This document shows positions 7,046 to 64,000 of a stretch of DNA of 64,000 nt, in pieces (the first letter of the stretch is position 1; each line of letters opens with the position of its first letter). This DNA comes from Gammaproteobacteria bacterium (GTDB lineage: Bacteria > Pseudomonadota > Gammaproteobacteria > Steroidobacterales > Steroidobacteraceae), in the NCBI GenBank assembly GCA_025359205.1, contig JANYHD010000018.1, positions 1-64,000 on the forward strand, written 5' to 3'. Below the pieces are notes generated by a model. The model was not told the origin of the DNA and searched no databases. It worked only from the letters and a program-made list of their open reading frames with translations. A program made the translations under genes and the position numbers.

Positions 7046-7876
7046 CTAGCTTACGCGCATGCGCCGCGGATCGAAGCGAGGCGGCGGGAAACTCGGCGCC
7101 AGCGCACGCAGCGTTGCCGCCATGATCTGCGCGACGGCCAGATCTCGCAGCCACTTGGAGTCGGCCGGCACCACGTACCAGGGCGCCCATGGCGTGTTGC
7201 AGCGTCCCAGCATGTCGCCAAAGGCTCTGCTGTAGGCCGGCCACTGCGCGCGCTTGCGCAGATCCTGCGGGTCGAACTTCCACTGCTTGCGCGGGTCGTG
7301 GATGCGCTCCTCGAAGCGGCGCCGCTGCTCGGCGCGGCTGATGTGCAGGAAGATCTTGACGACCTGGATATCGCTCTGGACCAGCATGCGTTCGAACTCG
7401 TTGATGTGGCGGTAGCGCGCCTGCCAGACCCGCCGTGGCACCAGGCTGTCGACGCGCGCGATGAGCACTTCCTCGTAATGCGAGCGGTTGAATACCGTGA
7501 TCTCGCCGCGCGGCGGAGCATGCTGGTGCACGCGCCACAGGTAGTCATGGCGCTGTTCCTCGGCGCTCGGCGCCTTGAAGGCGCGCACCGTGCAGCCCTG
7601 CGGATTGAAGGCCGAAAATACGTGGCGGATCGTGCTGTCCTTGCCGCCGCCATCGATGGCCTGCAGCACCACCAGCACACCGCTCCGTCCCTCGGCATAC
7701 AGGCGGTACTGGAGCTCGCCGAGTTCCGCGGCCAGCAACGCGGTCGCCGCGCGCGCCCGGGTCTCGTCCCAGCCGTGCGTATGTCGCGCTGCGGAGTTAT
7801 GCAGGACGACGCGCTTGCCGCCGCGCACGCGGAGCTTGCGCGGCAGGTCGGTGCGCACCCGGTTCGATGGTTTCAT
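7046..7876 (-). CDS. PPK2-family polyphosphate kinase
   Basis: Transfers phosphate between polyphosphate and nucleotides. The 276-residue protein has a P-loop-like DGGGKDS at 75-81 and FNRSHYEEV at 129-137, both hallmarks of PPK2, and a lid-type region with RRRFEERI. It is a single-domain form; whether it prefers ADP, GDP or AMP cannot be told. The ATG at 7876 is chosen because the longer frame to 7945 adds an Arg-rich run with no ribosome site. It is divergent from icd with 122 bases between. A CHAD protein, another polyphosphate-linked family, is at 50253. Confidence 0.9.
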   Translation of the reverse strand: MKPSNRVRTDLPRKLRVRGGKRVVLHNSAARHTHGWDETRARAATALLAAELGELQYRLYAEGRSGVLVVLQAIDGGGKDSTIRHVFSAFNPQGCTVRAFKAPSAEEQRHDYLWRVHQHAPPRGEITVFNRSHYEEVLIARVDSLVPRRVWQARYRHINEFERMLVQSDIQVVKIFLHISRAEQRRRFEERIHDPRKQWKFDPQDLRKRAQWPAYSRAFGDMLGRCNTPWAPWYVVPADSKWLRDLAVAQIMAATLRALAPSFPPPRFDPRRMRVS

Positions 7877-7998
7877 GAGCGCGAGTGTGCCGCAGTTCGC
7901 AACCGCTACGCCAGCGCCCGGCCGACGCCGGCGGCGGCCATGCATGTGTTAGCATTTCCGCCTCGTCCAACTGCCTACCGCGGGAAGCACGCACACCC

Positions 7999-9306
7999 AT
8001 GACCATGCCCTCCACTGCCAAGCCTACGCCGCCACCTGGCGGCCAAAAGATCAGCCTCAGCGGCACGCGGCTCGCCGTGCCCGACCGGCCCATCATCCCC
8101 TTCATCGAGGGCGACGGTACCGGCCGCGATATCTGGCGCGCCAGCGTGCGGGTGTTCGACGCCGCGGTAGCCAAGGCCTACGGCGGTAAGCGCAAACTCG
8201 AATGGATGGAGGTCTACGCGGGCGAGAAGAGCCACCAGGCCTTCAATAGCTGGCTGCCCGACGAGACCGTCGCCGCCTGCCGCGAGTACCTGGTGTCGAT
8301 CAAGGGACCGCTGACCACGCCGGTTGGTGGCGGCATCCGCTCGCTGAACGTGGCGCTGCGCCAGATGCTCGACCTGTACGTGTGCCTGCGCCCGGTGCGC
8401 TGGTTCAAGGGCGTGCCCTCGCCGGTCAAGGCGCCGGAAAAAGTCGACATGGTGATCTTCCGCGAGAACACCGAAGACCTGTATTCGGGCATCGAGTTCG
8501 AGGAAGGCACTGACGACAACCGCAAGTTCCTGGCCTTTCTCAAGGACAATTTTCCGAAGCACTACGGCAAGATCCGCTTTCCGTCCAGTTCCGGCATCGG
8601 CATCAAGAACGTGTCACGCGAAGGCACTGAGCGGCTGTTCCGGTCCGCGGTGGAATACGCGATCGCCAATCAGCGGCGCAGCGTGACCATCGTCCACAAG
8701 GGCAATATCCTCAAGTTTACGGAAGGATCGTTCCGCAGCTGGGCCTACGCACTGGCAGAGCGCGAATTCGGCGGCCAGGTTTACACCTGGCTGCAGTGGG
8801 AGCGCACCAAGGCGGCGCACGGCGAGGCGGCCGCGAACGCCGAGCAGGCTGCCGCGCTCAAGTCCGGCAAGATCCTCATCAAGGACGCGATCGCCGATAT
8901 CACGCTGCAGCAGGTGTTGACGCGTGCCGAAGAATTCGACGTGGTGGCCACGCTCAATCTCAACGGCGACTATCTCTCCGACGCGCTGGCCGCGCAGGTG
9001 GGCGGCATTGGCATCGCACCCGGGGCCAACATCAACTACCTCACGGGACACGCCGTGTTCGAGGCCACGCACGGCACGGCGCCAAAGTACGCCGATCTCG
9101 ACCAGGTGAATCCGGGTTCGGTGATTCTGTCGGGAGAGATGATGCTGCGCTACCTGGGCTGGACCGAAGCGGCCGACGCCATCATCAATGCGATGGACAA
9201 GACCATCGGGCAGAAGACCGTCACCTATGATTTCGCGCGCATGATGCCCGGTTCGAAGCAGGTGAAGTGCAGCGAATTCGGCGACGCGCTGATCGCGAAC
9301 CTGTAG
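7999..9306 (+). CDS. icd: NADP-dependent isocitrate dehydrogenase
   Basis: Converts isocitrate to 2-oxoglutarate and CO2 in the TCA cycle, in the cytoplasm. The 435-residue protein is the homodimeric E. coli type. It has the substrate and regulatory loop [13 protein letters not shown], with Ser115 equivalent to the serine phosphorylated by AceK, the [12 protein letters not shown] segment, and [10 protein letters not shown], whose Lys-Tyr pair marks NADP specificity. Two in-frame ATGs (7999 and 8005) are possible; both lie about 10 bases after GGGAAG. An upstream frame to 7885 is rejected. The gene is monocistronic or read through into the LysE gene, 52 bases downstream. Confidence 0.95.
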
Positions 9307-53347: not shown

Positions 53348-53671
53348 TCAGAGCTTCTCGAGCGGCTCGACGGAAATCGACAGTACCTTGCCCGAGGCGC
53401 TCAGCGTGCACGTCGCCCGCGCAATCGTTTCCCTGGTGCGCGTGCTGACCGCGGTCATTTGCAGCTCGCTGGGCTCGCCCAGCAGATTGTCGATGCCGTA
53501 GAAACTCGTTGCCTTGAGCCTGGGTGCCGGCTTCTCGGGCGTGGCGAGCGATGCGATGAAGGCTTCGGCGCAGGCTTGCGCGGCGGTACGCTCTGGGCGC
53601 GCCGCCTGCGAAAGCGTAGGTAACAATGAGATCGCCAATGCGGCCAGGGCCGCGGCTTTTCTGTTGCTCAT
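53348..53671 (-). CDS. Small secreted protein of unknown function
   Basis: A 107-residue protein with a signal peptide ending near LSQAA and two cysteines (ACAEAF, ATCTLS). The ATG at 53671 gives the signal peptide; a longer frame to 53779 adds 36 residues before it. It is downstream of the LysR gene by 104 bases on the same strand. Confidence 0.6.
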   Translation of the reverse strand: MSNRKAAALAALAISLLPTLSQAARPERTAAQACAEAFIASLATPEKPAPRLKATSFYGIDNLLGEPSELQMTAVSTRTRETIARATCTLSASGKVLSISVEPLEKL

Positions 53672-53775
53672 GTTGGTGTCAGCTCCAATGAGTAGTGGGG
53701 AAGTAGCCGGCTTGAAACTAGCCGCTGCCGCGAGCCGCGACAAATGATCAGTTTTCCCGGGAGCCTGAATCCTGC

Positions 53776-54690
53776 TCACCGCCGCAGCGCCGCCGCGGCC
53801 GGCCTGAACTCCGCCTCCAGCCAGTCGAGCAGCTCGCGCACGGCGCTGCGGCGCGCATCCGCGGTGCGCGCCACGGCGTAGTAACTCTCGCCGGCACCAA
53901 TCTCGTGCGCGAACACGCGCGTGAGCCGGCCGGCGGCAAAGCGCGCCTCGGTCAGCGGCGCCGCCACGAGTGCGAATCCGACGCCGCGCTCGGCAGCGTC
54001 AACCACGGCCGACATCGTGTCGAAACGGATCTGCTGGCGCGGCTGGAGTGGTGTCAGCCCGGCTGCCAGCGCCCAGCGATCCCACAGGTCCGCGCGCCGC
54101 GCGTGGACGATCAGGGACTCGGCCGCGAGATCGGCATAGTCGCGCACACCGGATTCGCGCAGCAACGAGGGCGAGCAGGCCGGAACGAAAGTCTGGGCGA
54201 ACAGCGCGCGCGCGTACAGTCCCGGCCATTGACCCGGACCCAGCGTGACCGACACATCCGTCTCTGCCTCGTGCGGCTCCGGCGGTGCGGAGCGCGTCGC
54301 GATCTGCAGGTCAGTGTCCGGGTGTGCTGCACTGAACGCAGCCAGGCGCGGCAGCAACAGCTCCTGCGCAAAGAACGGCGGCACCTGCAGGCGCAGCACC
54401 ACCCTAGCGCGCTGTTCGCGCAGCCCCGCGGTGGCCGCCTCCAGCGTTGCGAACGCCGGGTCAATCTGCCCCAGCAGCCGCGCGCCCTGCTCGGTCAGCG
54501 ATAGGGAGCGTGGGCCGCGCTTAAACAGTGCAGCGCCCAGCTGTTTCTCCAGGCCCCGCACCTGGTGGCTGACCGCAGAAGGCGTAAGGCACAGCTCAGC
54601 GGCCGCGGCCGCAAAGCTGCCGCGGTGGGCTGCGATCTGGAAGGTCTTCAGAAACTTCAGTGAGGTCGCGGGCAAAGCGCGGGGATCCAT
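53776..54690 (-). CDS. LysR-family regulator (GcvA-like)
   Basis: A 304-residue transcription regulator. The N-terminal HTH (LKFLKTFQIAAHRGSFAAAA, SAVSHQVRGLEKQLG) is followed by a substrate-binding domain. It is last in the sugar run, 44 bases after the isomerase gene, so it may control or report on the sugar locus. Confidence 0.9.
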   Translation of the reverse strand: MDPRALPATSLKFLKTFQIAAHRGSFAAAAAELCLTPSAVSHQVRGLEKQLGAALFKRGPRSLSLTEQGARLLGQIDPAFATLEAATAGLREQRARVVLRLQVPPFFAQELLLPRLAAFSAAHPDTDLQIATRSAPPEPHEAETDVSVTLGPGQWPGLYARALFAQTFVPACSPSLLRESGVRDYADLAAESLIVHARRADLWDRWALAAGLTPLQPRQQIRFDTMSAVVDAAERGVGFALVAAPLTEARFAAGRLTRVFAHEIGAGESYYAVARTADARRSAVRELLDWLEAEFRPAAAALRR

Positions 54691-54734
54691 TCAAGGAAAG
54701 ACCCCACATCCGAGCAAGCCTCATGCCACCCGTA

Positions 54735-55910
54735 TCAGGCGTGCTCGAGAGCCGCGCCAAGCTCGCCTATGGCGCAAACCAGGTGATACAACGTACTCGC
54801 GGGTGCAGGTTCGTGCACCAGCTCGCCTGCGACGCTGACCCGGTCCCACCACAGGCCAGGCACATCGCCGCGCAGGTATCGAGACAGCGCTGCAAGAGCC
54901 TGCAGGGCCATCACTGTGTATTCCTGTCGCCCTGTAAATCTGGCCATGGCGAGCGCGGCCTTGAGTCGCTCGGTCTGCGCCCATAGCCGCGCCGTGCCAT
55001 CACAGGGGATGAATTGTTCATTCAGCGCCATGACCGCAAGGCCGTTCCGGATGCCATGCTGCTCGCCCACCTGCACCAGGCGCGCGGCCGCCGCGCCAGC
55101 CGCACGGCTGCGCGCACCACGCCAGCGCAACAACAACCAGGCCCACTCGTATTGGTGACCGGGCTCCACATGAGCCGCCACGCTGTCGGCAGGCGCTTCC
55201 CAGCTACCACCCGTTCGCTCGAACAGCGCTCCGGTCCCGGCGTCGATCAATCGGTCCAACGCCAGCGCCACAATTTCCTCGGCGAGTGCGCGCCATGATT
55301 CCTCGCCGCTGACTGCCATCCAGTTCTGTGCCGCCTCGAGCAGGTGCATGTGGGGGTTCGGCAGCAGCAGACTGCCGGCGCCGAGTTCGGCGAACCCCGC
55401 TCCAGGGTGCGTGAAATTCTGCGCTATAGCGAGACGCAGTGCATGCGCGGCCGCATCAAGATCGGACACCGGGCCGAGAAAACGGCGCGTCTCCGCCAGC
55501 GCCAGCAGCACGAAGGCCTGATCGTACAACAGCGCACGTTCATCGAGCACCGCACCGTCAGCGGCCACCAGCGTCCGGTACAACCCATCCGCACGCCGGT
55601 AATGCCTGAAGAAATATTCCCAGCCGCGCTCGACCAGCCGCGCCGCATCGCCCTGCCATCCAAGGCCCGTCGCACGCGCGAAGGCATAAATCTGCCGGAC
55701 CTGGACGCGCGCCCGGCGCGGCTCGCCAGCGAGCGGGCCTTCCGGCCCCAGGAGTTCGTGAAATCCGCCGTGGACCTCGTCTACGCCGCGGCTGGCCCAC
55801 AGTGGACACGCCACGTGTGCAAGCCAATGACGGAGCCACGCATTGTGGGCGTGCAGCTGCCCGGCGTCAGTGAGCCCAGCCGTGGCGTCAGTGCGCAAGG
55901 CTGGGCGCAT
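54735..55910 (-). CDS. AGE-family sugar isomerase/epimerase
   Basis: A 391-residue (alpha/alpha)6-barrel enzyme of the N-acylglucosamine 2-epimerase/mannose isomerase family; HVEPGHQYEWAW and RLWAQTERLKAAL fit the catalytic His regions. It overlaps the permease gene by 23 bases. Next to a fructokinase-like ROK enzyme, a mannose-to-fructose isomerase role is the simplest guess. Confidence 0.82.
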   Translation of the reverse strand: MRPALRTDATAGLTDAGQLHAHNAWLRHWLAHVACPLWASRGVDEVHGGFHELLGPEGPLAGEPRRARVQVRQIYAFARATGLGWQGDAARLVERGWEYFFRHYRRADGLYRTLVAADGAVLDERALLYDQAFVLLALAETRRFLGPVSDLDAAAHALRLAIAQNFTHPGAGFAELGAGSLLLPNPHMHLLEAAQNWMAVSGEESWRALAEEIVALALDRLIDAGTGALFERTGGSWEAPADSVAAHVEPGHQYEWAWLLLRWRGARSRAAGAAAARLVQVGEQHGIRNGLAVMALNEQFIPCDGTARLWAQTERLKAALAMARFTGRQEYTVMALQALAALSRYLRGDVPGLWWDRVSVAGELVHEPAPASTLYHLVCAIGELGAALEHA

Positions 55911-57198
55911 CCACCGGCTTTCCCGCCGCGCGTGCCCGCGCTGCCGCGACGCCGAATACAGCGATGCAGGCGTAGGCCAGCATCGGCACGAAATAGGCGG
56001 CACGCAGGCCATCCAGGTCGGCTATGTGCCCGACGATCAGCGGCAGCACCGCGCCACCGACGATGGCCATGCACAGCAGGCCGGAGGTCGCGGCATTGGA
56101 GGCCGTGGAGCGCTCCAGCGTCAGCGTGAAGATCACCGGGAACATGATCGAATTGAAGCAGCCGATCGACAGCGCCGCCCAGCCCGCAGCGGCGCCCGGA
56201 GTCTGGCTGACCGCCAGGCACAGGATCGCAGCGATCGCCGCAACGACACCGAGCAGGAGTCCGGCGCGCACCCGCGTCATCAACAACAAACTGCCGACGA
56301 AGCGGCCAATCATCGCGCCGCCCCAATAGAAACTCACGAACTTCCCGGCGCGCTCAAGTGCCACGCCGAAGACATCGTCCCGGTGCAGGAAGTTGGTCAG
56401 CGTGCTGCCAATAGATACTTCGGCACCGACATACAGGAATATCGCCAGCGCACCGAGCAGCGCCCAACGCGAGCGCAGCGCGAGCGCCACACCGGCTGCG
56501 CCAGCACTGACCAGGTTGGCGTTTTCGCCCGGAGCCGCACGGGTCAGGCGATCGCGTACCGACCAGATGAACAGGGCTAGCAGACCGATCATCGCGGCGA
56601 TCACCAGGAACGCAAAGTCGATGTGTCGCAGCGACTCCGTGCGCTGCTGCACGGTCACCGCGCCACCGGCCGTTACGGCGAACATGCCGCCCGCGAGCAG
56701 CACCGAGGACACAAGGTACGGTGCGATGGCCGTGCCGAGCGAGTTTAAGGCCTGCGAGAGCGTCAGCCGAAAGTGCGAGCGCTCCGGCCTGCCCAGCAGC
56801 GCCGCCAGCGGATTGGCCGCGACCTGCAGAATCGTGATGCCGCTGGCGATGATGAACATAGCCAGCAATACAATGGCAAAGGTATCGACGTGCGTCGCCA
56901 GCGGCATGCACAGGCAACCCGCCACCATGATGGCCAGCGCCGTGACGATCGCGCGTGGGTAGCCGAGGCGCGCCACCAGCGCCGCCGCGGGCAGGGAGAT
57001 GACGCCGTAGGCCATGAAGAACGCAAACTGCGTCAGCATGACCTCCGCGTAGCTCAGTTTGTAGATCGCCTTCAGCGTCGCGATCAGCGGATCTACCGTG
57101 ACGGTAATGAAGCCCCAGGCGAAAAACAGCGTCGTGATCGACGCGAACGCTGCGCCCAGGCCGTTGGCCTGCGCATCGGTAACTGGTCGTTGCGTCAT
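55888..57198 (-). CDS. FHS-family sugar:H+ symporter (MFS)
   Basis: A 436-residue transporter with about 12 transmembrane segments, related to FucP/GluP/NagP. A longer frame to 57531 lacks a membrane N-terminus and overlaps the kinase gene, so the ATG at 57198 is used; it overlaps the kinase stop by four bases (ATGA). Confidence 0.88.
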   Translation of the reverse strand: MTQRPVTDAQANGLGAAFASITTLFFAWGFITVTVDPLIATLKAIYKLSYAEVMLTQFAFFMAYGVISLPAAALVARLGYPRAIVTALAIMVAGCLCMPLATHVDTFAIVLLAMFIIASGITILQVAANPLAALLGRPERSHFRLTLSQALNSLGTAIAPYLVSSVLLAGGMFAVTAGGAVTVQQRTESLRHIDFAFLVIAAMIGLLALFIWSVRDRLTRAAPGENANLVSAGAAGVALALRSRWALLGALAIFLYVGAEVSIGSTLTNFLHRDDVFGVALERAGKFVSFYWGGAMIGRFVGSLLLMTRVRAGLLLGVVAAIAAILCLAVSQTPGAAAGWAALSIGCFNSIMFPVIFTLTLERSTASNAATSGLLCMAIVGGAVLPLIVGHIADLDGLRAAYFVPMLAYACIAVFGVAAARARAAGKPVDAPSLAH

Positions 57199-58112
57199 TT
57201 GCCCGTGCTCTCCATCGCCTGTTTGTGGGTATCGATTGCCACCGCCAGCGCGCCCAGCGGACCCGCGTCCGCGGCAAGTCCCGGCGGCACGATGAAGTCC
57301 TCGAGACTCTCGTTTACTTCCGCGATGTCGAGGTAGCCATTGAGGCTTGCACGCAGGCAGCGCCGGATTTCTGGAAACAGGTGCGCACGGTGGCTGAGTA
57401 CGCCACCGCCCATCAGGATGCGTTGTGGCGCGACCGACACGACCAGCAGGTGTGACAGCTGGCCCAGCGCATGTGCGACGAGTGACCAGACCGGACTCTC
57501 CGGCGGCAGATCCACCGCAACGACTCCGCAACGGGCCTCGATCGCGGGACCCGAGGCCAGGCCCTCGACGCAGGGGCCGTGAAAGCTGCAGTGCCCCGGC
57601 CAGTCGTCGCCAGGCGCGCGCGCAATGCGCGCGTGGCCGAGTTCAGGGTGATGAGCACCGATCAGCGGACGACCGTCGTGGATCAGCCCAACGCCCACGC
57701 CGGTGCCGACCGTGACATAGGCGAAGTCGCTCAGTCCGTGCCCCGCGCCCCACCGCCCCTCCGCCAGCGCCGCGCCGATCACGTCGGTCGTGATGCCGAC
57801 CGGCACCGCAAAGCGTTGCGTGAAATACGAGGCGAGGTCGGTGTGCGCCCAGTTCTGCTTCGGTGTCATGCCGATGCGCCCGAAGCTGCGCGAGCCGGCA
57901 CGCAGATCGAGTGGACCGAAGCTGGCAATGCCGATGGCCGCCAGCGGCTCGGCCCCGGAATTCCAGCGCGCCAGGATTTCAGCGATCTGCGCCAGCGTGG
58001 CGGGCGGATCGCGGGTCGGCAACTGTTCGCGCGCGCGTATGTCTTCGGGCCCGCTGCCGAGGATGCAGATGCACTTGGTGCCGCCCAACTCTACGCCAGC
58101 GTAAATGGCCAT
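57195..58112 (-). CDS. ROK-family sugar kinase (fructokinase-like)
   Basis: A 305-residue kinase with the ATP-binding ELGGTK at 8-13 and the zinc-type HPELGHARIA with CSFHGPCVEG, the pattern of bacterial fructokinases (ScrK/GmuE group). Phosphorylates fructose or a related hexose. It starts 12 bases after the halogenase gene. Confidence 0.85.
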   Translation of the reverse strand: MAIYAGVELGGTKCICILGSGPEDIRAREQLPTRDPPATLAQIAEILARWNSGAEPLAAIGIASFGPLDLRAGSRSFGRIGMTPKQNWAHTDLASYFTQRFAVPVGITTDVIGAALAEGRWGAGHGLSDFAYVTVGTGVGVGLIHDGRPLIGAHHPELGHARIARAPGDDWPGHCSFHGPCVEGLASGPAIEARCGVVAVDLPPESPVWSLVAHALGQLSHLLVVSVAPQRILMGGGVLSHRAHLFPEIRRCLRASLNGYLDIAEVNESLEDFIVPPGLAADAGPLGALAVAIDTHKQAMESTGK

Positions 58113-58124
58113 GCCGCGCTGCAG

Positions 58125-59675
58125 TCAGCCCACGGAAAGGCGCCGGGCGCCAGGGCTGAAGTGGCTGTCATGTGAGGGTGCGGTCCTGGCTGATGCACTG
58201 ACCGCAGCCGCCACCGAAGCCAATGCGCTTTTTAGCTGGCCAGGCTGCATGAGGTCGACCAGAGGGTCATGGCTCTTCGGTACGACGCCCATGCCCTCAA
58301 GAATGTAGAACCAGCTCAGATCCGTGAACAGATCGCCGGCCTGCTGGCGAATCCGTCCGGTTTCCCGATACAGCTCGATACGCTGCGACAGGCTGTCAGG
58401 AATCGGCATGCTGCGGCAGTGCTGCCAGAACGGCGTATCACCGCGGCGAGTCAGGCAGTAGTGCAGGATGATGAAGTCGCGAATGCGTTCCATCTCGTTG
58501 ATCAGCTCGCCGTTGTAGGCAGCGATGTTGCTCTGGCTGAAGCTCCGGTCCGGGAAGTAATCGAGCAGCTTGTAGACGCCGCTCATGACCAGGTGGATGC
58601 TGGTCGACTCCAGGGGTTCAAGAAATCCGGACGCCAGGCCCAGGGCCACGCAATTGCGATTCCAGAACTGCTTGCGGCGGCCGGCCACGAAGCGAATGAT
58701 CCGCGGATCGGTCAGGGTCTTGTCGCCAACCGAGCTCAGCAGATCGTCGAGCGCCTCCGTATCGCCCAGGTAAGCGCTGGAGTAGACGTAGCCGTTGCCA
58801 TTGCGGTGCTGCAACGGAATGCGCCAGCGCCAGCCTGCGGCCCGCGCGAACGATTCCGTATACGGCGGTCGGGTAGACCGCAGTTCAGTCTGCACTGCGA
58901 CCGCGCGGTCACAGGGCAGATACTCGCGCCAGTCGACGTAGCCTGTCTGCAGGGTCTTTTCAATGAGCAGGCCATTGAAGCCGCTGCAGTCAATGTAGAG
59001 ATCGGCCCTGAGCCGCGACCCATCGGCATGGATGAGTTCATCCAGGAAACCGTCCGCGCGTTGCGTGGCCGATTTGACGGCTTTCTGTACGCAGCTGACG
59101 CCCAGGCGCTCGGCAAAGGCGCGCAGGTATTTCGCAACCAGGCCCGCGTCGAAATGCAGCGCGTAACGCAGGCCCGTCACCGGTCCGCCAGATTTCTGAT
59201 CCGGAAAGCGGAACCGGCCCTGATCGCCTAAGGTCGCGCACAGGCTGAAGTCGCTGACCGCGAGCGCAATCCCTTCAGACCTGGCCTTGTGCCAATAGTG
59301 ATGGAACGGTCGCAGGCCGATCGTTTCGCCGAAGGTACCGAACGGATGCCAGTAACTATGGCCGGGATCGCGCCAGTCCGTAAACTTGATGCCCAGCTTG
59401 AACGTCGAGCGCGTGTGTTGAACGAAGTCGGCTTCGTTGATCGAGAGAAATCTCAGCAGCTCGATGATCGGCGGAATGGTCGCTTCGCCAACGCCGACCG
59501 TGCCAATGTCAGGGGACTCGATGACGGTTATCGCGCAGCCCGAACCACCGAGCGCGCGCGCCAGGATGCTCGCCGCGATCCAGCCGGCGGTGCCGCCGCC
59601 CAGGATGGCAATGCTTTCTATTCGCCCGTCCGCCCGGTCACCCGCGCCGGCCGCAGCTGCAGTAGTGCTTGGCAT
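58125..59675 (-). CDS. Flavin-dependent halogenase (tryptophan halogenase family)
   Basis: A 516-residue FAD enzyme. The family marks are all present: GGGTAGW near 26-32, GVGEATIP at 61-68, the catalytic lysine in TFKLGIKF (Lys93, equivalent to Lys79 of RebH/PrnA), WRWRIPLQHR in place of WxWxIP, and FLEPLESTSIHLV carrying the second conserved Glu. It should halogenate an indole or tryptophan-like molecule. No tryptophan or antibiotic genes are near; the neighbours are a TonB receptor and sugar genes. Such halogenases next to sugar loci occur in Xanthomonas and Caulobacter with unknown physiological substrates. Confidence 0.88.
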   Translation of the reverse strand: MPSTTAAAAGAGDRADGRIESIAILGGGTAGWIAASILARALGGSGCAITVIESPDIGTVGVGEATIPPIIELLRFLSINEADFVQHTRSTFKLGIKFTDWRDPGHSYWHPFGTFGETIGLRPFHHYWHKARSEGIALAVSDFSLCATLGDQGRFRFPDQKSGGPVTGLRYALHFDAGLVAKYLRAFAERLGVSCVQKAVKSATQRADGFLDELIHADGSRLRADLYIDCSGFNGLLIEKTLQTGYVDWREYLPCDRAVAVQTELRSTRPPYTESFARAAGWRWRIPLQHRNGNGYVYSSAYLGDTEALDDLLSSVGDKTLTDPRIIRFVAGRRKQFWNRNCVALGLASGFLEPLESTSIHLVMSGVYKLLDYFPDRSFSQSNIAAYNGELINEMERIRDFIILHYCLTRRGDTPFWQHCRSMPIPDSLSQRIELYRETGRIRQQAGDLFTDLSWFYILEGMGVVPKSHDPLVDLMQPGQLKSALASVAAAVSASARTAPSHDSHFSPGARRLSVG

Positions 59676-59690
59676 GGCGGTTCTAGGATG

Positions 59691-59718
59691 AGGGTGGCGC
59701 GGTGCGCGCCGCCACCCT
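59691..59718. terminator. Hairpin between the TonB receptor and the halogenase
   Basis: AGGGTGGCG pairs with CGCCACCCT around a ten-base loop, in the 68-base gap between the two genes. No T-run follows on the minus strand. It may reduce halogenase transcription relative to the receptor. Confidence 0.5.
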
Positions 59719-59743
59719 AATTGTCATGAAACCGCTCGAACGA

Positions 59744-62700
59744 TTACAGCTTGCCCTTGATACCGAAGAACAACCGGCGACCGGTGTCGTCGTAGGTGAA
59801 GGGCAGATTGTCCCACTGCACGTAGGTGTGCTGCTTGGCATTGGTCAAGTTTACTACTGACAGCAACAGGCCAATGTGACTGTTGAAGTTGTAGCCAACC
59901 TGCCCATCCAGCTGGCCAAAGGGCGCGGAGTACACCGGGTACACGACCTGATTGCCATGTATGTCCTGGAATGACCAGGTCGAGCCGACCAGCGAGTCAT
60001 TCACGGCCCTGCTGCGCCAGGCGTATGCCGCGCGCGCCGAGAAGCCCGCGTGTTCATAGTAAGCCTGCAGGTTGATGGAGTCCTTGGATACGCCGGGAAT
60101 AGCCAGATGCTTGGCAAAATCCGTGTCCAGATCGGTCTCGGAATTCGAACGCGTGTAGTTCGCGGCAATGCCTACACCGCTGTCCCATGAGTACTGAACG
60201 CCGAATTCGCCGCCGTAGATCTTGCCCTTGCCGCCGTTGACAGGCGTGGTCACCGGGCCGACCGTGCCGCCGAAATCGTCATTGACCAGCGTGGGTATCT
60301 GCGCCGTAGTCACGAAATTGTCGACCGCCTTGTAGAAGAAGCCGACGCTGATCAGGCTGTTTCGTGACAGGTAGTCCTCCCAGGACATATTGAACTGGGA
60401 GGCGCGGAACGGATCAAGGTTCGCGTTGCCAGAGCCGCCATTCACGAAGAAGAACCGGGCCCCATTGGGACCATCAGCGCCGCGGGTGAAGTTGTAGGAA
60501 TTGCCAAGACCCAGCTGCGCCAGGTTCTGCGGGGCCACCACGCGCGCAGCACCGAAACGAAACTTTTGCGATTCAGTGGCATTCAACACGAAGTTGAAGG
60601 ACGGCAGCACGTCGACGTAGCTGCGCGATTTCTCGAATGACAAGTCGTTGTTGTACACGCCGTTCCAGTTCGACGTTCCCTGGAAAGTTCTCAGCGGGGC
60701 CGCCTGGCCGCCATCCACCGTCAGGTCGGTCTTGACCACGCGGATGCCGAAGTTGGCGTGATAAACGTCACTGGTACCGCCCGCGTCACCCATCACATAG
60801 AAGGACGAGGTCTTTTCGTGCACCTGGTAGGAGCTGATGCGATCGACAAAGAAGGCTTCAGTGTTGTTCGGAACGCCGGCCTGGCTCCACAGCGTGTTGA
60901 GATACGTCGACGGATTGGTCATCCCGCCGGCCACCGGATCCTTAACCGAAATGGTGCCGACGGCGAAGCTGTTGTAGTACTTCACCAGTTCAGCATTGGT
61001 CAGCGCCGTCGAGTAAGGAATGGTCGCGTAGCCCGGATCGGAGTAGTAGATCCAGCTGCCGGAATTCGGGTCAACCGTGGCCGACCCGTTGGGGTTGTGA
61101 TTGCAGCAGTTGCCGGCGTAGGTGCCCGCGCCCACGCCACCGATACCGTAGGAACCCGATCCATCGATCAGGTATCGGCCGAAGGTCTGGTCGACGTCAC
61201 GCTTGGCAAAACGCAGACCGGCGGTCACCGAAACGATGTCGTTCATCTTGAAGTTCAGGTTGCCCTTCAAGGCGACATTCTTTTCGTCGGTCAGGTTCGC
61301 CCAGGCCCAGTTGGACTTGAACAGCGTATACGCCGGATTGGAGAGCAGGTTGGTGTAGCCGTTGTTGTCGGCAAAATTGGCCGTGGGCAGCCCGGAGTTG
61401 CCGCCGTTAGTCCAGCCGAAGGAATAACCGTGGTTGCCGTTATTGCAGGCAGCGCCGTAGTTGTTGCAGCCGGGCGCCGTGGGCATGATCGAACCGGTGC
61501 CGCCGAAGGCGCCGTAGAACCCGTGCTCGACGTCGGCCTGGTCGGCCTCCAGGTCAGAGGTGGCCTTGGCATAAGCCACGCCGACATCGCCCGTCAGCGG
61601 GCCGCTGCCACCGAAATTGGTCGAAACCTGGAAGTTGTTGGACTTCGAAATGTTGTGCTGGTACAGCGTGGCGGTCTCCAGGCCATTGGCCATGAAGGTC
61701 GCCGACTGCACGACGCCGTTTCCATCGATCGAGTAGGACTTGGTCGGGTCTATGCCTGGGAAACTCGCGGCCGTGGTGGCCGAATTGTTGGCACCGCCAC
61801 CGTTGAAACCCACTTTCGAAGAGTAGGTGATGCTTTCGTCATCTTCCCGCACGAAGAAATATTCGGCGCGGGTGGTGATGTCATTGGTCCATTTCCATTC
61901 GGCGCCCAGGGTAGCGCCGGTGGTTTTCACGTGTTGCAGGATATCGCTGAAATATCCGAACTGGGGATCGATGTAGGTCTGCCCGTTAGGCAGCGTGCTC
62001 AGCGTGCTGGCCGACGGACTGCCCACGTAGGAGCCGTCCTGCGCGGTGTTCGTGACCAGCCAGCCGGCGCGATTCTGATCCTGGAACTGCTTATCGTGGG
62101 TCTTCTGGTCGTCATACGACACGCTGCCGGTAATGGCAAAGTCGTCGCTGAATTTGAAGCCGGCGACCAAAGCTGCCTGCGGCGTTGCGCCACCCTCGGC
62201 GTCGGTCGCCTTGGTTGCCCGGGCGTTGCCACCGATGCTGAATCCCATCGGCTGCGCGAGCGGTGAACGGGTCTTCAGATCCACGATGCCGCCAAGCCCG
62301 CCTTCGCGATTCTGCGCCGTGGGGTTCTTGATGACGTCGATGCCGCCGAGTTCCTCACTGGGAATGCCTTCCAGCGATGCGTATTGAATGTTGCCGCCGT
62401 TGCCGCCACCTGATCCTTCACCCGAGACGTAGAATTCCTTGCCGGTCAGGAACACTTCACCGTTCAGCGTGATGAGGTTGTTGCCAAGGCCGTCAATGAG
62501 CACCTTCGTGCCCTTGCCGCCGGCACGATTGATCTGGACGCCCGGGAGTCGCTGCAATGACTCGGAGACGTTCTGATCCGGCATCTTGCCAATGTCTTCC
62601 GGAGCGATGGATTCAATGGGCTGATTCGACGCGCGCTTGCGCGCCAGGGCGCTCTCGAGAGAGGCGCGGAAGCCCGTGACGATCACTTCTTCGAGATCAG

Positions 62701-62854
62701 CGGCGGGCTTGGCCGCAGTCGCAGCCGGCGCTGCCTGCGCCTGCGCGGCGCCCGGCATGGCGAAGCAAAACGCTTCCATTGAAATGGCCGCCACCAGGGC
62801 GGCATTGGTGGCGCGCGACGAGCGTCGCGCGCGCTTTACTCTGCGATGAGACAT
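59744..62854 (-). CDS. TonB-dependent receptor of the Xanthomonas/Caulobacter type
   Basis: A 1036-residue outer-membrane receptor. The signal peptide ends near AQAQAAP, the TonB box is EEVIVTGFRASLESALARKR, and the plug holds ENLPGVQI-type and IDGLGNN segments. The barrel ends in LFFGIKGKL. The N-terminal run GFRASLESALA is the mark of the TonB-Xanth-Caul family, generally tied to plant glycans. The promoter region holds LacI-type operators. The receptor and the sugar genes downstream are likely one regulon. Confidence 0.9.
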   Translation of the reverse strand: MSHRRVKRARRSSRATNAALVAAISMEAFCFAMPGAAQAQAAPAATAAKPAADLEEVIVTGFRASLESALARKRASNQPIESIAPEDIGKMPDQNVSESLQRLPGVQINRAGGKGTKVLIDGLGNNLITLNGEVFLTGKEFYVSGEGSGGGNGGNIQYASLEGIPSEELGGIDVIKNPTAQNREGGLGGIVDLKTRSPLAQPMGFSIGGNARATKATDAEGGATPQAALVAGFKFSDDFAITGSVSYDDQKTHDKQFQDQNRAGWLVTNTAQDGSYVGSPSASTLSTLPNGQTYIDPQFGYFSDILQHVKTTGATLGAEWKWTNDITTRAEYFFVREDDESITYSSKVGFNGGGANNSATTAASFPGIDPTKSYSIDGNGVVQSATFMANGLETATLYQHNISKSNNFQVSTNFGGSGPLTGDVGVAYAKATSDLEADQADVEHGFYGAFGGTGSIMPTAPGCNNYGAACNNGNHGYSFGWTNGGNSGLPTANFADNNGYTNLLSNPAYTLFKSNWAWANLTDEKNVALKGNLNFKMNDIVSVTAGLRFAKRDVDQTFGRYLIDGSGSYGIGGVGAGTYAGNCCNHNPNGSATVDPNSGSWIYYSDPGYATIPYSTALTNAELVKYYNSFAVGTISVKDPVAGGMTNPSTYLNTLWSQAGVPNNTEAFFVDRISSYQVHEKTSSFYVMGDAGGTSDVYHANFGIRVVKTDLTVDGGQAAPLRTFQGTSNWNGVYNNDLSFEKSRSYVDVLPSFNFVLNATESQKFRFGAARVVAPQNLAQLGLGNSYNFTRGADGPNGARFFFVNGGSGNANLDPFRASQFNMSWEDYLSRNSLISVGFFYKAVDNFVTTAQIPTLVNDDFGGTVGPVTTPVNGGKGKIYGGEFGVQYSWDSGVGIAANYTRSNSETDLDTDFAKHLAIPGVSKDSINLQAYYEHAGFSARAAYAWRSRAVNDSLVGSTWSFQDIHGNQVVYPVYSAPFGQLDGQVGYNFNSHIGLLLSVVNLTNAKQHTYVQWDNLPFTYDDTGRRLFFGIKGKL

Positions 62855-62934
62855 GAGACTGACCCCCCGAATTTTGTTGCTCTGCTCTGACAGTCGGCCG
62901 TTGCCGCCGTCTGCGCAGAACGATATTTCGAAAA

Positions 62935-62946
62935 GACAGCGCTGTC
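62935..62946. promoter_or_regulatory. LacI-type operator 1
   Basis: GACAGCGCTGTC is a perfect 12-base palindrome with a central CG, about 80 bases before the TonB receptor start. It has the look of LacI/GalR-family sites. Confidence 0.6.
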
Positions 62947-63164
62947 AATTCTTTTCCAACTGACTTCGGCTGCTCGGCCACGAGCGCAGGCAAAACAATT
63001 CCTGTGATGGTCGGGAGCAAGCAACCCGACGGAGTCGTGAATTGCAATTAGCTTGTTTTTAACCGGCTGTAAGCGTATTCATTGACGGACACCCGAGACC
63101 GCCGACCAGCCGGGAGGGTCGCAGAAACCGCTTTCATAGGTCAGGGTGATGGGTTTATTATGAT

Positions 63165-63178
63165 TGTCAGCGCTGCCA
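63165..63178. promoter_or_regulatory. LacI-type operator 2
   Basis: TGTCAGCGCTGCCA shares the CAGCGCTG core with operator 1 and is imperfect at one pair of positions. It lies 25 bases before the LamG gene start. Confidence 0.6.
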
Positions 63179-63202
63179 TAATTAATAGAACGGAGGGGCG
63201 TC

Positions 63203-64000
63203 ATGAAACCAATTGTGCAGTGCGTGCAGGCGTCGCGCCACGCGCGTGGACTGGTGTCGGCACTGCTGCTGCTGGCTGTCGCCGCTGTGGCGAGCGCGGA
63301 AGTTGCCGATTCGCGGCAGAATTTCGGGCCGTATAACGCCGTGTTCCTCGCCGGCGGAGTGGGCATGAGCCGTCCGCTCGCTCCTGACAGTGCGCTCCTG
63401 CGCGCCAACGCGACCTGGTCGCTCAGTGGCTGGCTGCGGCTCGACCGGAGTGACGGTGGGCCGCTGCTACTGGCGGCAATTGGCGATGCCAGGGTGACGG
63501 ACTGCCGTTGCCTGCTGGTCGACGGAGGACATCTGCAATTGCGTGTCGGCGCCAGCGACGTCCTGTCGGCGCCGCAGGACCTGGGACGAGGTGCGTGGCA
63601 TTTCATCGCCGCCACCTACGACGGACACACGGCGCGCCTGTACATCGACGGTACAGAGTCCGCGGCGCAGGCCGCAAACACGGGCACCGCCACCGCAGTG
63701 CTGCGCATCGCACCCGAATCCGCGGATGATCCCGCTGGCACGCACCATTTCGGTGGCGCGATCAGCGGCTTCGCCCTCGACGGCCAGGCGCTGGATGCGG
63801 GCGCGGTGCGTTCGCGCTACGCGGCGCGTCCCGACTTCGGGCTGATCGCATTCCACCACGTTGGCGTCGGCTGGCCGTGGCAGGAACACGCGTGGCGCGG
63901 ATTGCTCGAACCGCAACCGGCCTGGACATTGCCACATGGCAAGGCGCCCTACGACTCGCCGGCCATCGCGCCCGGCACCGCGGCCGCAGTGCATGCATCG
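63203..64000 (+). CDS. Secreted protein with an N-terminal LamG domain, partial (right edge)
   Basis: Begins with ATG after GGAGGGG; 266 codons are visible with no stop. A signal peptide (LLLLAVAAVASAE) is followed by a LamG-like jelly-roll domain at about 65-205 (WSLSGWLRLD, HFIAATYDGHTARLYIDG). The stretch after it, WPWQEHAWRGLLEPQP, starts the next domain, probably a glycoside hydrolase, but it is cut by the edge. It opposes the TonB receptor and shares operators with it. Confidence 0.75.
   Translation, partial: MKPIVQCVQASRHARGLVSALLLLAVAAVASAEVADSRQNFGPYNAVFLAGGVGMSRPLAPDSALLRANATWSLSGWLRLDRSDGGPLLLAAIGDARVTDCRCLLVDGGHLQLRVGASDVLSAPQDLGRGAWHFIAATYDGHTARLYIDGTESAAQAANTGTATAVLRIAPESADDPAGTHHFGGAISGFALDGQALDAGAVRSRYAARPDFGLIAFHHVGVGWPWQEHAWRGLLEPQPAWTLPHGKAPYDSPAIAPGTAAAVHAS

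Follow-up and report, generated by a model that had tools for sequence, protein, structure and literature searches.

A sugar-use locus of a Steroidobacteraceae bacterium with a BrvH-type flavin-dependent halogenase beside its TonB-dependent receptor

Flavin-dependent halogenases work with FADH2, O2, halide and a catalytic lysine. Two members of the family with solved structures, BrvH (PDB 6frl, from Brevundimonas BAL3) and Xcc4156 (PDB 6y1w, from Xanthomonas campestris), have an open pocket and do not act on free tryptophan; their authors state that the native substrates are unknown, as a first-pass annotation of the DNA studied here did for sugar-locus halogenases in general, and a peptide substrate has been suggested (PMC5945002, PMC7336383). 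A second halogenase gene adjoins brvH, and the words ‘TonB’, ‘operon’ and ‘carbohydrate’ do not occur in the running text of the BrvH paper (PMC5945002). TonB-dependent sugar loci of Xanthomonas and Shewanella combine a receptor, an inner-membrane permease and catabolic enzymes (PMC1790865, PMC2996990), the Shewanella mannoside set consisting of manP, omp-Man (the outer-membrane receptor), manI and manK (PMC2996990). Here we describe a locus of the latter kind that holds an enzyme of the former kind. It lies in a stretch of 64,000 nucleotides from a Gammaproteobacteria bacterium of the family Steroidobacteraceae (assembly GCA_025359205.1, contig JANYHD010000018.1, positions 1 to 64,000 of the forward strand; hereafter the window). 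It shares receptor, permease and catabolic enzymes with the Xanthomonas and Shewanella loci, but the term ‘halogenase’ is absent from the main texts on those loci (PMC1790865, PMC2996990).

The first-pass annotation had placed a receptor, a halogenase, a ROK kinase, a sugar permease, an AGE isomerase and a LysR gene on one strand as a sugar-use locus, and all six were found on the minus strand. The first five, in the direction of transcription, are:

59744-62854, minus strand: TonB-dependent receptor of 1036 amino acids (PF07715, PF00593 and TIGR01782 above cut-offs; the last, of Xanthomonas-Caulobacter type, at 486 bits against a cut-off of 310)
58125-59675, minus strand: flavin-dependent halogenase of BrvH/Xcc4156 type, 516 amino acids (PF04820, 591 bits, cut-off 21)
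57195-58112, minus strand: ROK sugar kinase, fructokinase-like (PF00480)
55888-57198, minus strand: MFS sugar permease of the glucose/galactose (GluP, GGP-type) group, ManP-like (TIGR01272, 218.9 bits, cut-off 202.55)
54735 to about 55910, minus strand: AGE-family sugar 2-epimerase/isomerase, read as mannose isomerase (PF07221, 208 bits)

The receptor and halogenase genes are separated by 68 base pairs (bp), and the halogenase and kinase genes by 12 bp. Overlaps had been claimed from the kinase onward. The kinase and permease open reading frames (ORFs) do overlap by 4 bp, and the permease and isomerase ORFs overlap by 23 bp if the isomerase starts at the ATG at 55910, which we chose among candidates at 55910, 56012, 56003 and 55898; between the isomerase and LysR genes there is instead a 44-bp gap. 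We infer co-transcription of the cassette, which very probably represents a sugar uptake and use operon with a dedicated, catalytically intact flavin-dependent halogenase between outer-membrane receptor and sugar kinase. Such halogenase neighbourhoods may have been noticed before. None of the open-access halogenase papers listed by our searches was found to tie BrvH/Xcc4156-type halogenases to receptor or sugar loci, and among them we saw no description of this variant, in which a sugar operon contains a paired halogenase.

The three best solved relatives of the window halogenase were 6frl (BrvH, 479 bits), 9luq and 6y1w (Xcc4156, 448 bits). In alignment columns it carries GGGTAGW, GEATIP, FKLGIKF (with the lysine), GWRWRIP and EPLEST (with the glutamate), bearing out the earlier statement that the family residues are all present. 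The lysine and glutamate motifs are shared with the free-tryptophan halogenases RebH, PrnA and BorH of the same family. We take these to be the catalytic residues, and judged by its motifs the enzyme is apparently intact. The halide site is taken as described for BrvH (PMC5945002).

Unlike RebH, PrnA and BorH, the window enzyme does not have the C-terminal tryptophan-binding loop: 14 residues of this region in BorH, a tryptophan 6-halogenase, are without counterpart. BrvH, 9luq and Xcc4156 align there without gaps, and BrvH thus resembles the window enzyme in motifs, in this region and in its unknown native substrate. A segment as short as that of the window enzyme was found in 113 of 149 sequences (window included), the other 36 having 3-7 residues more, and short loops have been described as a group trait of open-pocket halogenases (PMC7336383). 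On alignment grounds the window halogenase belongs to the BrvH/Xcc4156 open-pocket group as a new member. It also differs from RebH, PrnA and BorH in lying outside a natural-product cluster; no natural-product gene was found among the neighbouring genes scanned in and beyond the window.

A lack of conserved gene order had been named beforehand as one outcome that would refute the observation. The order receptor-halogenase-ROK kinase was kept in three relatives (loci are designated by L and a number). In L027, from a metagenome-assembled genome, the receptor and halogenase match at 66% each, the kinase at 52%, the AGE protein at 47% and a divergent GH2 gene at 73%; L182 has receptor, halogenase, kinase, permease and AGE at 66, 63, 52, 55 and 51%, and L189 has receptor, halogenase, kinase and AGE at 54, 61, 55 and 45%. 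In all three the halogenase and kinase ORFs overlap by 1-4 bp. A ROK protein that takes the position of the permease, between kinase and AGE, in L027 and L189 reads, from its translation, as a NagC/Mlc-like regulator. L088 retains receptor, halogenase and GH2, and the order of halogenase, receptor and AGE differs in L184 and L187. The permease was found by tblastn in L182 and also in L103, which retains halogenase-kinase-permease-AGE; no receptor was detected there within 17 kb. There the halogenase (7512-9053, minus strand) has lost the GE, lysine and glutamate positions (Lys to Ser, Glu to Ala) with a full-length open frame, which fits a function tied to the receptor, although a single case proves nothing. 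LysR, which had been counted in the gene set, lies on the same strand next to the isomerase but is not beside the cassette in the relatives compared: no match was found in L027 or L189, and in L182 one lies about 7 kb from the AGE gene. It is therefore probably outside the conserved cassette.

The case extends beyond the first-pass annotation in being one instance of a wide pattern. The genome encodes 12 PF04820 proteins over the cut-off, all in loci holding 8 TonB-dependent receptors, out of 28 PF00593 matches in total, and each of the 8 lies within 500 bp of a halogenase. In a rough random-placement model, the probability that a 1.5-kb gene comes to lie no more than 500 bp from a receptor is about 0.05, and that of 8 such cases is 4e-11. 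Tandem sets of 2-4 halogenases in one locus also occur. The neighbours are GH2 and GH3 in the window, GH1, GH3 and PF10091 ‘putative glucoamylase’ in L009, GH35 in L010, a GH51-type protein in L011, GH1 in L012, GH13 with a GH27-type protein in L013, and a PTS sugar transporter in L014. Glycosidases (GH1, GH2, GH3, GH13, GH27, GH35, GH51) thus surround 7 of the 8 receptors, and L014 (the C1 locus) has the PTS instead: its EIIA-HPr-EI and EIICB proteins (L014:20-4325, plus strand) stand directly before a receptor-halogenase-Cupin_8 set.

Relatives were sampled through their halogenases, so the counts describe halogenases with a receptor and not receptors with a halogenase; many receptors have none. 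Receptor counts combine a narrow and a broad hidden Markov model, as the broad one alone missed the receptors of L009 and L034. The halogenase-based sampling gave 55 loci (42 proteobacterial, 13 from Verrucomicrobia/Planctomycetes), including loci of Caulobacter, Sphingomonas and Gilvimarinus. A receptor was present in the fetched stretch in 35 of the 42 proteobacterial loci, within 500 bp in 30, the stretch of L055 being too short to judge; 37 of 45 further stretches with a full halogenase, from the same genome and other relatives, also had one. Sixty-one receptor-halogenase pairs lay within 500 bp (8 from this genome and 53, that is 28 + 25, from relatives). In 55 of these the halogenase directly follows the receptor on the same strand (median gap 110 bp); in 1 it precedes the receptor, and in 5 the two genes are on opposite strands.

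Distance matrices of receptors and halogenases correlate with r of 0.59-0.600 over all genomes, against a mean of 0.468 for within-genome shuffles; for the 7 genomes with several pairs r was 0.506, against a shuffle mean of 0.011. When partners were re-dealt only inside each genome, none of 5000 shuffles reached the observed r. Receptors and halogenases are inherited as pairs, which does not imply physical contact. A chance neighbourhood, or hitch-hiking without function, could account for the 21 related receptors in 20 stretches without a halogenase (stretches chosen as halogenase-free) and for AGE loci that lack both genes. Against it stand the order conserved in four genomes, the short halogenase/kinase overlaps, the placement of halogenases near receptors far above random and the shuffle result, and we regard it as highly improbable and already largely refuted.

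The AGE loci come from a survey in which 29 of the 296 sampled genomes of the order, this one included, gave 32 match rows, the best 22 of which were viewed (20 stretches, the window and L103). Halogenase was found in 6, receptor in 6 and both in 5 (the window, L182, L184, L187 and L189); L191 had a receptor alone, L103 a halogenase alone, with its motifs lost, and 15 had neither, some stretches being short. For L179, the nearest sign of the enzyme came from halogenases some 10 kb beyond the viewed stretch. With 15 of the 22 loci lacking both, the idea that the halogenase tracks the mannose enzymes was rejected.

Around the cassette, the window holds these further features:

53776-54690, minus strand: LysR regulator, GcvA-like but under the cut-off of the GcvA model
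53348-53779, minus strand: small ORF with a 4-bp overlap at the LysR stop and no match in Pfam or NCBIfam
59676-59743, minus strand: G+C-rich hairpin without a T-run in the receptor-halogenase gap (z = -2.34; 2 of 200 shuffles fold equally well)
62935-62947, minus strand: LacI-type palindrome TGACAGCGCTGTC, 81 bp before the receptor start
63203-64000, plus strand: 5′ part of a LamG-GH2 glycosidase gene, divergent from the receptor (whole gene, 1168 amino acids, L015:3204-6710)

The locus extends past the window end and includes there the plus-strand LamG-GH2 and GH3 genes, a minus-strand SSF symporter, a plus-strand LacI regulator and a minus-strand Sugar_tr permease. The gap hairpin perhaps sets unequal expression of receptor and halogenase. 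The 12-mer of the palindrome occurs once in the window against 0.12 expected, and 11 of 100 window shuffles hold one; the genome has two sites with the 13-mer pattern (one with the reversed control), the second of them inside another halogenase gene. In L027, L047, L051, L053, L054, L058 and L115 the 12-mer precedes the called receptor start by no more than about 230 bp, and 20 of 191 loci contain it somewhere. Because of the shuffle frequency and the second genomic copy inside a halogenase gene, we give the palindrome modest weight.

Regarding the sugar, the best solved relatives of the kinase were 3ohr/1xc3 ‘putative fructokinase’ (233 bits), and its score with the ScrK model was 199 bits, under the cut-off of 400. 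The AGE protein matched at family level, its nearest solved relatives being cellobiose (61 bits) and N-acylglucosamine 2-epimerases at low scores, and those of the GH2 protein were exo-beta-D-glucosaminidase and beta-mannosidases. Mannoside use best fits these assignments, with a chitosan-type sugar as the alternative. In the proposed pathway, GH2 and GH3 glycosidases would free a mannose-type sugar from a glycan imported by the receptor, the permease would carry the sugar inward, the AGE enzyme would convert mannose to fructose and the ROK kinase would form fructose-6-phosphate. We consider this mannose-type route probable, the identity of the sugar being deduced from the enzymes.

What the halogenase acts on is less constrained. 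A single sugar as common substrate is unlikely, because enzymes of this type stand in loci for many different sugars and with MFS, PTS or ABC uptake. Action on an aromatic aglycone of the imported glycan, or on a phenolic group attached to it, is suggested by the assays listed in the first-pass annotation and would agree with the GH2 and GH3 glycosidases at the locus and with an open pocket that could take bulky aromatics; related halogenases, however, stand in a GH13 (starch-type) and GH27-type (galactoside) locus, where aromatic aglycones are not expected, and we hold this to be distinctly improbable. Two options remain, a diffusible aromatic product or an aromatic bound in a protein or peptide.

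The diffusible product would be a halogenated indole or phenol made on sugar for defence or signalling, each sugar locus having its own copy so that any glycan triggers it. Halogenase copies in loci for many sugars in one genome, the palindrome upstream of the receptor and the existence of receptor-less halogenase loci are consistent with this, as is the action of BrvH and Xcc4156 on free indole in vitro, although that of BrvH is low (PMC5945002, PMC7336383). Tandem sets of halogenases and matched partner distances would be needless for one diffusible product, and the best of the 8 PF01212 matches of the genome, the one that was checked, is of threonine-aldolase/GntG type and not tryptophanase-like, which so far fits the earlier remark that no indole pathway is seen. 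Such a product seems rather unlikely to us.

It is also conceivable that the protein does not halogenate in the cell but is a flavin monooxygenase, a redox sensor or a structural partner. Among 149 full-length halogenases, 7 fail the check for GE, lysine and glutamate with complete open frames, the L103 copy in its matching mannose-type locus included, and the window enzyme has weak similarity to the QhpG and LodB models. The lysine is nevertheless kept in 144 and the glutamate in 142 of the 149 (alignment columns), the window copy is intact, and in 6 of the 7 exceptions an intact copy lies in the same locus; we therefore think a non-halogenating role improbable. Degenerate copies, with at least one of GE, lysine and glutamate lost, were seen at L102:11902-13437, L041:6048-7481, L099:7618-9153, L109:7164-9254, L072:10499-11989 and L078:10464-11849. 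Because tryptophan halogenases crystallise as dimers (PMC7336383), motif-failing copies may possibly be pseudoenzyme partners of the intact ones.

We favour an aromatic bound in protein or peptide because of the open pocket, the receptor pairing, the companion oxygenases and the precedent of QhpG, which hydroxylates peptidyl tryptophan in the cytoplasm prior to export and is a flavin enzyme with a fold resembling that of FAD-dependent halogenases (PMC7876137). The window halogenase is itself not a member of the QhpG family (32.8 bits with the NCBIfam equivalog model, cut-off 240). As for the companions, the genome has a single SapC gene and three Cupin_8 (JmjC-like) genes; the former and two of the latter are located within halogenase loci, and the remaining Cupin_8 gene is 4.3 kb away from a halogenase. 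Members of the Cupin_8/JmjC group can hydroxylate proteins. Cupin_8 and SapC genes of halogenase-receptor loci are seen at L012:9100-10832 and L014:9005-10033, and the starch-type locus holds a DUF6445 gene (L013:4126-4836) and one for a TPR protein with a 2OG-Fe(II) oxygenase domain (L013:11181-12665). Mechanistically, a general flavin reductase would supply FADH2 (the genome holds one PF01613 protein, HpaC-like but under the HpaC cut-off), which with O2 and halide would give an active halogen species; the catalytic lysine would then pass the halogen to the indole-like ring of some bulky substrate. The likeliest candidate is tryptophan within a protein or peptide of the uptake system, and neither the sugar nor free tryptophan. 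That the halogenase acts on such a bulky aromatic substrate, perhaps protein-bound tryptophan of the uptake system, is a possibility that we put forward with some doubt, and a sugar operon, a mannose-type pathway and halogenation of a bulky substrate taken together are, tentatively, the best overall explanation.

Several observations weigh against this explanation. No tryptophan column separates 62 halogenase-adjacent receptors from 21 other receptors, and one conserved receptor tryptophan as the substrate was rejected on this comparison. No receptor was detected in 7 of the 42 proteobacterial and 8 of the 45 other loci, some of the stretches being short, nor in any of the 13 Verrucomicrobia/Planctomycetes loci (L067-L073, L075, L077-L081). 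In L052, L074 and L093 the halogenase adjoins the gene for a MalK-type ABC sugar-transporter ATPase, and no receptor was detected in these stretches; if a protein is targeted, the ABC loci argue that it could be one other than the receptor. The matching of partners may mean no more than that whole loci are inherited together. The QhpG and LodB scores are far under their cut-offs, and models for other flavoenzymes give similar scores. No permease was found by tblastn in L027 and L189, and the AGE and GH2 assignments are distant, making glucosamine or another sugar possible.

These results hint at a role of the enzyme in nutrient uptake instead of antibiotic making. A far-reaching extension, which we consider unlikely as it stands, is that in many Proteobacteria glycan uptake is linked to an oxidative modification system of its own, in which open-pocket halogenases, sometimes together with SapC and JmjC-type Cupin_8 proteins, would halogenate or hydroxylate aromatics in proteins or peptides of uptake loci before export, tuning or licensing uptake; if true, this would be physiological protein halogenation by bacterial flavin halogenases outside natural-product making. 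For BrvH/Xcc4156-type halogenases, the substrate search moves from natural-product chemistry to nutrient uptake. Since the genome evidence suggests the receptor ahead of the halogenase as a partner, the sugar of the locus as a likely inducing condition, and companion oxygenases, the substrate question becomes testable in culturable relatives that have such loci.

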